Below, one piece after another: positions 61,255 to 64,000 of a stretch of DNA of 64,000 nucleotides. How positions within the stretch are numbered: position 1 is the first letter of the stretch; every line of letters begins with the position of its first letter. Location of the stretch: NCBI RefSeq assembly GCF_009720675.1, contig NZ_WNJO01000001.1:62001-126000 (forward strand), read 5' to 3'. The notes under the pieces are model-generated. The model was not told where the DNA came from. It saw nothing but the letters and a program-made list of their open reading frames with translations, and searched no databases. A program made the position numbers and the translations under genes. This stretch comes from Secundilactobacillus folii. Lineage in GTDB: Bacteria; Bacillota; Bacilli; Lactobacillales; Lactobacillaceae.

Positions 61255-61283
61255 TTGCACCCCACTAAATTCCGTCATATTCT
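61255..61283 (+). promoter_or_regulatory. Promoter of pyrR-carA-carB
   Basis: TTGCAC (61255-61260), 17 nt and TATTCT (61278-61283), a few bases after the rluD stop. The leader is only about 50 nt. It has no PyrR-binding loop, antiterminator or terminator. Confidence 0.65.
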
Positions 61284-61339
61284 TAAGTTAAATGCAATGA
61301 TTGATTCCACTAAACTCAAAAATAAATAGGAGGCCACTC

Positions 61340-61876
61340 ATGGCAAAAGTAGTCGTAGATGCAATGGCAATGCAACGGGCATTGACCCGAATTACTTACG
61401 AGATTATTGAACATAATAAGGGCATTGATGGCCTAGTGATTCTTGGAATCAAGACCCGTGGGATCTACTTGGCTCAACGAATTGCTGATCGTCTTAAACA
61501 GTTGGAAAACGCCACTGTTCCGGTGGGTGAATTGGACGTGACACGATACCGGGATGATATCGAACACGATGCAATCGAAAACGACCCGAAAGTGACCGTT
61601 TCAAAAATTGATTTTCCAGTGACTGATAAAAAGGTGATTTTAGTTGATGATGTCCTCTATACGGGTCGGACGATTCGGGCGGCAATGAGCGCCATCATGG
61701 ACTTGGGTCGGCCAAAACAAATTAACTTGGCTGTCCTAGTAGATCGCGGTCATCGGGAACTGCCAATTCGCGCAGATTTCGTTGGTAAAAATATCCCCAG
61801 TTCGCAACACGAGCGAATCAAGGTTTCAGTCAGTGAGATCGATGGTCACGATAGCGTCGAGATCATTGAACGGTAA
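61340..61876 (+). CDS. pyrR: PyrR family bifunctional regulator/uracil phosphoribosyltransferase
   Basis: PyrR proteins attenuate pyr operons when UMP or UTP is high. The 178-residue protein keeps the PRPP-binding [16 protein letters not shown] and the [14 protein letters not shown] and GKN segments. Compared with Bacillus subtilis PyrR, two RNA-contact positions differ: Tyr20 for His22 and His25 for Arg27 (in [14 protein letters not shown]). No attenuator precedes it. The ATG has GGAGG upstream. It is co-directional with degenerate carA and carB, so it may correspond to the PyrR2 type known in L. plantarum. Confidence 0.92.
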
Positions 61877-61902
61877 ATGCAGCAGAGATTGGAATGATAT
61901 AG

Positions 61903-62973
61903 ATGGCACAACGCTTTTTAATATTGGAGGACGGTTCAGCTTATCCAGGTATCGGTTTTGGTGCTGGCGCTACGACAACGGGCGAGGTCGTCTTCAATAC
62001 CAGTATGCTGGGTTATCAAGAGATCGTCACTAACCAGATCTATCACAATCAAATCATCGTTTTTTCTCAGCCAATTATTGGTAGCATCGGCATTTCTCAC
62101 GATAGTTACGAATCAATATTACCGACTGCTAAGGGAATGGTGGTACGCGACGTCACTGATATTTCTAAGAATCGGCAGCGTTCACTTTCCCTAGATCAGT
62201 TTTTGAAGCAGCATAATATTCCAGGAATTAGCGGCATCGATACCCGTCACCTGATTAGACAACTGCAGCAGACTGGTACGATCAAGGGCAGCATTGTTGA
62301 CGTGGCCGATGACCATGCATTTGATCAGCTTCACGCGACCGTCCTGACCAACCAGCAGGTGGCCCAAGTTGCTACGCCGCGACCTTATCCGAACCCTAAT
62401 CAGGGGTATAACGTGGTGGTGATTGATTTTGGGCTAAAACATGGGATCCTGCGACAGCTTTCAAAGCGCGACTGTAACGTGACGGTGTTGCCATGGGACG
62501 CGACTGCTCAAGACGTGATCAACCTGGATCCAGACGGCGTGTTGCTGTCAACTGGCCCGGGTTCTCCATTGGACTTACCTGAGAGTGTTTTGGATATGAT
62601 TCGCACGATTGAGGAACGAATCCCGCTTTTTGCCATTGGCTTGGGACATGAATTATTTGCACTGGCGAACGGGTCAGAAGTGAAAAAATTAAAGCTGGCC
62701 CACCACGGAGCTAACCACCCAATTCGAACGATTATCACAAATGAAATTATTTACGCCACCGAAGGACAAGAATACGTCGTGGATCCCGATTCCGTTGATC
62801 GCGACCGTTTAATTACCACCTATGTGGACTTAGTTGACGGCTCGATTCAGGGGTTACGGCACCGGGACTACCCAGCGTTTTCAGTGCAATTTTTCCCGGA
62901 TGGGGCGCCAGGACCTAATGACTCCGTTGATTTATTTGATGAATTTATGGAGACTATGGGCACACGGGAGTGA
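61903..62973 (+). CDS. carA: CarA-like protein (carbamoyl phosphate synthase small subunit) with lost glutaminase triad
   Basis: The 356-residue protein aligns along the full CarA family: N-terminal GEVVFNTSMLGYQE, IPGISGIDTRHLIRQL, VVVIDFGLKHGILRQL and the C-terminal class I GATase domain. However, the catalytic Cys of GICLGHQ is Gly246 (AIGLGHE), the His and Glu of QFHPEASPGP are Phe331 and Asp333 (QFFPDGAPGP), and the TSQNHGY glutamine-pocket motif reads ATEGQEY. Glutamine hydrolysis is therefore not expected. The ORF is intact with no frameshift. It lies 26 nt after pyrR and 4 nt before carB. It may be an ammonia-dependent or purely structural subunit. Confidence 0.9.
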   Translation: MAQRFLILEDGSAYPGIGFGAGATTTGEVVFNTSMLGYQEIVTNQIYHNQIIVFSQPIIGSIGISHDSYESILPTAKGMVVRDVTDISKNRQRSLSLDQFLKQHNIPGISGIDTRHLIRQLQQTGTIKGSIVDVADDHAFDQLHATVLTNQQVAQVATPRPYPNPNQGYNVVVIDFGLKHGILRQLSKRDCNVTVLPWDATAQDVINLDPDGVLLSTGPGSPLDLPESVLDMIRTIEERIPLFAIGLGHELFALANGSEVKKLKLAHHGANHPIRTIITNEIIYATEGQEYVVDPDSVDRDRLITTYVDLVDGSIQGLRHRDYPAFSVQFFPDGAPGPNDSVDLFDEFMETMGTRE

Positions 62974-62977
62974 TGAG

Positions 62978-64000
62978 ATGGATAATGCAATTCAAAAAAT
63001 ACTCATAATCGGTGGTGGTCCCACTGAAATTGGTCACGAAACCGAGTTGGATGCAGCCTGTGTACAAGTGATTCAAGCCTTTAAGAAGCAGGGGATCAGA
63101 CCGCTCTTAATTGACAATAATCCATTTTCCTCAGCTCTGGAAAGTGTTCAGCCTACCAACATGTTTATTCAAGCGGTGACCGCTGATAACGTCCAACGGA
63201 TCATTGAAAAGGAACACCCAGACGCAATTTTGCCAACCGTTGGTGGTGTCTTGGCAATCAGTGTCATTCAAGAACTTCAAGAAAATGGGGTGCTGGCGGA
63301 TAACAACGTTCAGACCCTAGGCATTCCAGGCAATGCCATTATGGATATTAATAATCCCGACCGTCTCAATAGTGTTTTGAAGCATGTCGGCGTGCCGATA
63401 ATTGCTTCTGAAACGGTTGGCACTTTGGATGAAGCAGTCAACGTGGCTGCGTCAATTGGTTATCCGGTCATTGTTAAACCGATTGCGCCACGAATTGATA
63501 CGAACCGAATCCTGTGTGAAAGTGAAGCTGAATTGATCAGTGCTGTGACCCGGGGCTTTTCGTGGTCGCGGTTTAAACAGTGTGTGATCGAGCAAAGTAT
63601 CGTTGGTTATAAAGAAGTCGAACTAGTCTCTGTTCGCGACGCAATGGGCACGCAGGTCCTGATTGCCGGTCTGGAAAACATTGATCCAATCGGCATTCAT
63701 TCTGGGGATTCGATGGTGGTCACACCAACTTTGACTTTAAGTAACGCGGAATATCAGGAGTTACGCGATACTGCATTTGCCATCAACAATCAGTTTAATT
63801 TTACTGGTGTGGTTCACACGCACTTTGCGTTACAGACTAATCCGGAAAATTTTTACGTGACCAAGGTCACACCTTACAATGATCGCGGGACTTCACTAGC
63901 GGCTTGTGCAACTGGGTATCCAATTGCTTACGTCGCTGCTAACCTCTATTTAAATCAGCGCTTAACAGAAGTCCGCTTACCTGATATCTATCATTTTAAA
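62978..64000 (+). CDS. carB: CarB-like protein (carbamoyl phosphate synthase large subunit), partial, with degenerate N-terminal ATP-grasp domain
   Basis: The first 341 codons are in the window. The family framework is clear (DAILPTVGG, ENIDPIGIHSGDSMVV, ATGYPIA), but catalytic motifs are lost. The N-terminal GSGPxxIGQAxEFDYxG reads GGGPTEIGHETELDAAC. The glycine-rich ATP loop after the RPxxxLGG-type strand is KPIAPRIDTNRI at 167-178. Metal ligands corresponding to E. coli Gln285, Glu299 and Asn301 are His282, Lys296 and Thr298, and Arg303 is Tyr300. The carboxyphosphate half thus seems inactive. The carbamate-kinase-like half and allosteric domain are outside the window. ATG 62978 lies just after the carA stop, with GATGAG upstream. 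Confidence 0.88.
   Translation, partial: MDNAIQKILIIGGGPTEIGHETELDAACVQVIQAFKKQGIRPLLIDNNPFSSALESVQPTNMFIQAVTADNVQRIIEKEHPDAILPTVGGVLAISVIQELQENGVLADNNVQTLGIPGNAIMDINNPDRLNSVLKHVGVPIIASETVGTLDEAVNVAASIGYPVIVKPIAPRIDTNRILCESEAELISAVTRGFSWSRFKQCVIEQSIVGYKEVELVSVRDAMGTQVLIAGLENIDPIGIHSGDSMVVTPTLTLSNAEYQELRDTAFAINNQFNFTGVVHTHFALQTNPENFYVTKVTPYNDRGTSLAACATGYPIAYVAANLYLNQRLTEVRLPDIYHFK

Follow-up and report, generated by a model that had tools for sequence, protein, structure and literature searches.

A pyrR gene and a catalytically broken carbamoyl phosphate synthetase pair, predicted remnants of an ancestral pyr operon, in Secundilactobacillus folii and other Lactobacillaceae

The stretch of DNA analysed here (the window) comprises 64,000 nucleotides of the 2.68 Mb genome of Secundilactobacillus folii (NCBI RefSeq assembly GCF_009720675.1, contig NZ_WNJO01000001.1, positions 62,001 to 126,000 of the forward strand; G000:C1:62001-126000 in our numbering). 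Its right end carries pyrR and homologues of carA and carB, the genes for the small and large subunits of carbamoyl phosphate synthetase (CPS), in the order lspA-rluD-pyrR-carA*-carB*, followed past the window end by a convergent rqcH-like gene. Asterisks mark homologues that have lost catalytic residues. The carB* gene extends beyond the window to G000:C1:127500, for a full length of 840 aa (L005:2479-5001), and the genome encodes a second, canonical carAB with intact active-site residues on contig C10. The features of the locus are the following:

61340..61876, + strand: pyrR, 178 aa (NCBIfam NF003548, 266.5 bits against a cut-off of 218)
61903..62973, + strand: carA*, CPS small subunit without the catalytic Cys and His, 356 aa (homology, residue comparison)
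62978..64000, cut by the window end, + strand: carB*, CPS large subunit lacking both active sites and the allosteric domain (homology, residue comparison)
61328..61333, + strand: ribosome binding site of pyrR, AGGAGG (sequence)
61255..61283, + strand: promoter-like TTGCAC-17-TATTCT between rluD and pyrR (read by eye)
60307..61251, + strand: rluD-type pseudouridine synthase (open reading frame, ORF; customary left neighbour, order kept in relatives)
59874..60338, + strand: lspA, signal peptidase II (ORF; customary left neighbour, order kept in relatives)

Functional CPS requires the Cys and His of a class I glutaminase, two ATP-grasp sites with their glycine loop and Glu/Asn metal ligands, and a C-terminal allosteric (MGS-like) domain, and all of these appear to be missing from the window pair. 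In CarA*, the nucleophile Cys is replaced by Gly (FAIGLGHEL versus FGICLGHQL), the catalytic His by Phe (VQFFPDG versus VQYHPEA), and the Gln of the glutamine site by Glu. In CarB*, Glu299 has become Lys and Asn301 Thr, the glycine loop and metal ligands of the first ATP-grasp domain are lost, and the core of the second is deleted. The CarB* model stops at the equivalent of E. coli CarB residue 923, homology covering E. coli residues 1-923; a Pfam scan found no MGS domain in CarB*, the same scan being also blank for the live CarB of this genome. The pair retains sequence and fold homology to the CPS family. CarA* is homologous to canonical CarA over its full length and scores above the NCBI equivalog cut-offs for the CPS small subunit, so automatic annotation tends to call it an enzyme, whereas full CarB* falls below the NCBIfam CarB cut-offs (520.6 versus 1027 bits and 501 versus 599 bits).

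These losses extend well beyond the window. In a set of 80 loci, the CarA nucleophile position is Gly and the CarB glycine loop is lost in every locus, Glu299 is Lys in 75 and Arg in five, and Asn301 is kept in 14 (two CarB rows of this set are short: L066, 656 aa, and L129, 473 aa). The core of the second ATP-grasp domain is deleted or degenerate in all broken CarB rows printed, whereas live CarB rows retain the checked residues, except for a Glu-to-Asp change in L170 and in L189. These comparisons excluded CarA rows under 251 aa and CarB rows under 451 aa. The CarB lesions vary from lineage to lineage, Glu299 being replaced by Lys, Arg, Ala, Gly, Ser or Asp, whereas the lineages have in common the Gly that replaces the CarA nucleophile. 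In 20 relatives, identity to the window copy is 60-85% for CarA* and 32-70% for CarB*. An earlier note on this DNA had described CarA and CarB homologues devoid of catalytic residues; judged by sequence, it is right for both subunits, and the loss is much larger than first stated.

A search for CarA homologues in 397 Lactobacillaceae genomes from 40 genera yielded matches in 394 genomes and all 40 genera, and at least one representative of each genus was then inspected. Judged from these representatives, catalytically broken carAB occurs in 34 genera, a live operon at the same place in five, and neither in one; where representatives were available only as 4 kb loci, CarB was judged from a partial homologue. 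In 33 genera, CarA with Gly for Cys is followed by a broken CarB, the CarA* frame being open in their representatives. In genus g33 (L196), which is a case of a different order of decay, CarA retains its Cys, the catalytic His has become Leu, and CarB is dead. The live genera (g12, g13, g25, g30, and g31) have CarA with Cys and His at that place (for g25, CarA residues only), and in genus g29 rluD adjoins rqcH with no pyr gene between them in the three genomes inspected. The survey for pyrR-carA-carB clusters that the earlier note had proposed thus uncovers a family-wide arrangement, with canonical carAB elsewhere in many genera, including that of the window. The dead pair has rluD upstream in 32 of 33 genera, g28 being the exception within the stretch fetched: its cluster (L207, genome G028) consists of pyrR-carA*-carB*, with neither rluD nor lspA within 6.5 kb upstream, and therefore appears to have been relocated as one block.

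Purifying selection on the pair is strong in the four genera compared. Median ratios of nonsynonymous to synonymous substitution rates (dN/dS), restricted to pairs with 0.1<dS<1.5 and to proteins over length cut-offs, range from 0.009 to 0.033 for the pair and are approximate, since dS is close to saturation, though far below neutrality. For CarA* they are 0.012 in Secundilactobacillus (6 pairs), 0.021 in Levilactobacillus (134), 0.012 in Lactiplantibacillus (15), and 0.018 in Lentilactobacillus (1); for CarB*, 0.018 (1 pair), 0.023 (24), 0.009 (1), and 0.033 (1), respectively; and for PyrR, 0.011, 0.027, 0.058, and 0.006. The Secundilactobacillus input comprised 14 pyrR, 14 carA, and 13 carB sequences and that of Levilactobacillus 24, 25, and 25. 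The proteins thus combine lost catalytic residues with maintenance by selection, as is characteristic of pseudoenzymes, and both pseudogene decay and CPS activity of the pair seem unlikely.

The origin of this arrangement can be read from the live loci L194 and L197, where the order is lspA-rluD-pyrR-pyrP-pyrB-pyrC-carA-carB-pyrF-pyrE, followed by rqcH on the opposite strand (pyrP, pyrB, pyrC, pyrF, and pyrE were named by eye; L194 has one additional ORF before rqcH). A similar gene order is found in the Bacillus pyr operon. Intermediate loci (L174, L177, L183, L191, and L193) are left with pyrR-pyrP-carA*-carB*, L192 has the same genes without pyrR, and in the group of the window pyrP is gone as well. 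The live order and the pyrP-retaining intermediates at the same flanks indicate that the locus is most likely the ancestral Lactobacillaceae pyr operon between rluD and rqcH, reduced to its regulator and a dead enzyme.

On a phylogeny of 76 CarA proteins, a single origin of all dead CarA was rejected (approximately unbiased, AU, test, p 0.0019); this phylogeny omitted L190 because of its very long branch, and its labels followed the nucleophile alone, so that L196 was scored live. A single origin within Lactobacillaceae was not rejected (AU p 0.117). This points to two or more separate losses within the order: dead CarA do not form one clade because genus g49, from a second family (f2), lost its active sites separately. 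Genus g49 (L264/L265; genomes G405 and G439) has a whole pyr operon (without pyrP in L264) with dead carA and dead carB beside rluD. Its CarA shows Cys to Gly and His to Asn replacements, and its CarB has Arg129 changed to Pro and has lost the glycine loops and metal ligands, so that residual activity through an intact CarB working with a dead CarA was rejected. We found no second CarA in G405 and G439 at E 1e-60. For the single g49 pair available, dN/dS is 0.057 for CarA* and 0.084 for CarB*, similar to PyrF (0.079) and higher than PyrR (0.027) and RluD (0.039).

PyrR itself appears to be unexceptional. Among 47 genomes, 40 have one PyrR, five have two (G014, G037, G038, G111, and G331), and two have none at E 1e-25 (G017 and G029); in the genome of the window we found no second PyrR, the window copy being the sole one. 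It matches the equivalog NF003548 and contains a 13-residue motif that we take to be the phosphoribosyl pyrophosphate motif, and its genome contains PyrR RNA elements, as expected of an attenuation regulator. These elements are three RF00515 matches lying directly before a pyrP-like gene, pyrB-pyrC, and pyrF-pyrE; they score 41.6-48.7 bits (E 1.2e-5 to 2.6e-4) and do not reach the gathering score of 54. Compared with the best-matching solved PyrR (entry 1non), Thr-Tyr replaces Ala-His at what are presumably RNA-contact positions. The same Thr-Tyr occurs in 122 of the 124 PyrR proteins compared, among them PyrR1 of G331 (Lactiplantibacillus group) and the PyrR of live pyr operons; its near-universality and the predicted RNA elements before pyr genes suggest that the window PyrR very probably binds RNA. 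It is thus best viewed as the ordinary attenuation regulator of the cell, with predicted RNA targets, and the earlier note's portrayal of it as a second regulator with peculiar RNA-contact residues is not supported. No RF00515 attenuator was matched before pyrR in the window at the gathering score, and some relatives that retain pyrP have such an element at the pyrR locus. Scanned against Rfam at the gathering threshold, the window gives a single match, a class B bacterial RNase P RNA (50625-51003, 327 bits). In L190 (G009, genus g10), CarA*, CarB* (510 aa), and PyrR have strongly diverged together, and no PyrR RNA element was found. As for the separate promoter proposed upstream of pyrR, promoter-like boxes are visible by eye in the window, and TTGACA- or TTGCAA-like boxes plus -10-like boxes were likewise read in the upstream regions inspected, which cover 12 of the 14 Secundilactobacillus loci, but an automatic promoter scan did not list the window site.

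The dead pair also persists where a live CPS seems to be lacking. Searches with the C-terminal part of live CarB, in which dead-residue CarB at the rluD place counted as not live, found no live CarB in 22 of 24 Levilactobacillus genomes (genus g16; the exceptions are G111 and G380, with one stop flagged in the latter) and in 10 of the 40 genus representatives (G009, G013, G015, G017, G024, G027, G028, G033, G034, and G035). Only three of these ten (G028, G033, and G035) have PyrB over the cut-off. In seven CPS-less genomes (G013, G015, G024, G028, G034, G084, and G201), we inspected 12 PyrR RNA elements and could assign all but one in G034: ten lie before permease genes of the uracil or cytosine type, in three cases with a short nucleoside-deoxyribosyltransferase-like ORF in between, and another in G034 is followed by a different type of transporter (all names by eye). 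Carbamate kinase, which could be an alternative source of carbamoyl phosphate, is over the cut-off in 11 of 13 genomes tested. Five genomes have pyrB with no live CPS found (G028, G033, G035, G405, and G439), and the four of these included in the carbamate kinase search (G028, G035, G405, and G439) all have that enzyme; in such pyrB-bearing genomes, arginine or citrulline may thus supply the carbamoyl phosphate used to make pyrimidines. In G020 (putative Secundilactobacillus oryzae; L281 and L282), the other carAB consists of fragments of 244 and 241 aa, and the dead pair beside pyrR is intact.

Taken as one statement, we consider the following reading probable, with some reserve: an ancestral pyr operon lost pyrP, pyrB, pyrC, pyrF, and pyrE; its carAB lost the catalytic residues and stayed as a constrained pair next to an ordinary PyrR; and CarA* and CarB* would assemble into a CPS-shaped complex that performs no catalysis and serves a non-enzymatic role. 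The complex is suggested by the CarB* fold, the constant gene pairing, and the residual rate correlation between CarA* and CarB* (0.51, a value reached in none of 2000 permutations; thinning left 24 of the 69 usable loci). The likeliest role for it would be that of a protein partner tuning the PyrR-dependent control of pyrimidine supply, including uptake where de novo synthesis is absent; this last step, taken alone, we propose only tentatively. The gene order is suggestive of such a link, pyrR lying directly upstream of carA* in 75 of the 80 loci, with all five misses in Paucilactobacillus, and so is the joint absence of the locus and of PyrR in g29. A bolder extension, which we regard as rather doubtful, is that CPS has an old catalysis-independent role with PyrR in the control of pyrimidine supply, and that this role persisted after catalysis was lost on at least two occasions, once in Lactobacillaceae and once in the second family.

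Several observations weigh against this reading or parts of it. The dN/dS ratios suffer from the near-saturation of dS and, for CarB*, are based on a single pair in three of the four genera; CarB* is shortened in a few lineages (to 510 aa in L190 and 688 aa in L174); and the single-chain structure model of CarA* is mediocre (pLDDT, the predicted local distance difference test score, 74.8; pTM, the predicted template modelling score, 0.54). CarA* and CarB* occur together without an adjacent pyrR in all five named loci of Paucilactobacillus (genus g3) and in genera g6, g18, g27, and g37; no PyrR match was obtained in the genome of g18, which is 87% complete and does have CarAB*. The rate correlation with PyrR is 0.35 for CarA* (1 of 2000 permutations as high) and only 0.14 for CarB* (295 of 2000), and the control protein RqcH correlates with CarA* at 0.56 and with PyrR at 0.46. 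Because the RqcH-CarA* control exceeds the CarA*-PyrR value, we consider the latter unspecific and do not take correlated rates as proving that PyrR is the partner.

Two alternatives compete only with the PyrR-partner step. The first is that the pseudo-CPS moonlights away from PyrR, as a scaffold or chaperone or in a ribosome or membrane role, pyrR being a neighbour merely inherited from the old operon. The pairs lacking an adjacent pyrR, the genome without a PyrR match, and the unspecific rate correlation all speak for it; against it, pyrR has stayed directly upstream in most loci though the other pyr genes left, and in g29, where the locus is absent, the tested genome also lacks PyrR. On balance we think it unlikely, while taking it seriously. 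The second, put forward in the earlier note, makes CarA*B* a sensor of inorganic carbon, carbamoyl phosphate or UMP that relays its signal to PyrR. It draws on L. plantarum, whose PyrR2 is cited as a regulator of the pyr operon that responds to inorganic carbon (PMC3582564), and on the presence of the same cluster in Lactiplantibacillus loci, including L. plantarum L110; in G331, PyrR2 is 63% identical to PyrR1. However, the absence of the C-terminal allosteric domain makes UMP sensing by CarB* unlikely, the universal loss of the glycine loop and Glu299 in the 80 loci argues against bicarbonate or ATP sensing through the normal site, the Thr-Tyr change invoked is unspecific to PyrR2, and retention of the dead pair in Levilactobacillus genomes with no live CarB found does not fit a role tied to CPS. 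We therefore judge ligand sensing improbable, an inorganic-carbon link being possible only through the role reported for L. plantarum PyrR2.

The remaining alternatives fare worse. An action of CarA* or CarB* on the cell's own live CPS, as a decoy subunit or allosteric partner, would suit the 24 of 34 broken-locus genera whose representative has a strongly matching CarB elsewhere, but selection on CarA* is also evident in Levilactobacillus, where live CarB is mostly not found, and we hold this to be very improbable. Still slimmer are the chances that the pair remains an enzyme, either an ammonia-dependent CPS or one with a new ATP-grasp activity: Glu299 is kept in L174, L177, L178, L181, and L185, and L177 alone keeps all N-terminal ATP-grasp residues checked, against the losses seen throughout the 80 loci and in the second ATP-grasp core of every broken row printed. 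Plain pseudogene decay of a redundant operon, for which the seemingly progressive loss of pyr genes and the divergent, occasionally short CarB* could be invoked, can practically be dismissed given the open CarA* frames in 33 genera, the high CarA* identity, and the low dN/dS.

For the preferred reading, a constrained, non-catalytic CPS-shaped pair, several consequences follow. CarA* is likely annotated automatically as an enzyme, and a non-existent CPS may find its way into metabolic models of lactobacilli. Where the pair persists at a dN/dS near 0.02 without a live CPS, a second function of the enzyme may have become its only one. The dead CPS is also a new suspect in the CO2 dependence of pyrimidine and arginine synthesis in some lactobacilli and, if the bolder extension holds, the CO2-related role reported for L. 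plantarum pyrR2 could be partly due to the dead CPS downstream. The presence of the cluster, as pyrR2-carA*-carB*, in Lactiplantibacillus makes the effects of pyrR2 mutation on carA*carB* in L. plantarum worth attention. We found no report of the dead CarAB pair in the open-licence literature, which is too narrow a basis to claim its absence from print; the parts available of the pyrR2 literature on lactobacilli contained nothing on genes neighbouring pyrR2, and those of the L. casei pyrR paper PMC10609543 nothing on a dead carAB.

One of the closest known systems is that of L. plantarum PyrR2, listed as lp_1782 in a table of PMC7911632. The same rluD-pyrR-carA*-carB* cluster is present in Lactiplantibacillus-group loci (L098-L111 and L041), to which lp_1782 presumably belongs; unlike in L. 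plantarum, no PyrR1 was found in the genome of the window, and one PyrR would serve all its PyrR RNA elements. The ancestral pyr operon at lspA-rluD (L194, L197, and L264) has the same flanks and the same order of the remaining genes, whereas the window locus lacks pyrP, pyrB, pyrC, pyrF, and pyrE and its carAB is predicted to be dead. With canonical CarAB (PyrAA-PyrAB), the pair shares two-subunit homology over the whole of CarA and residues 1-923 of E. coli CarB, but not the catalytic Cys and His, the C-terminal allosteric domain or, by sequence, working ATP-grasp sites. Human CPS1 also has a glutaminase domain without the catalytic Cys; its synthetase halves still work, whereas both synthetase sites of CarB* are predicted to be dead.

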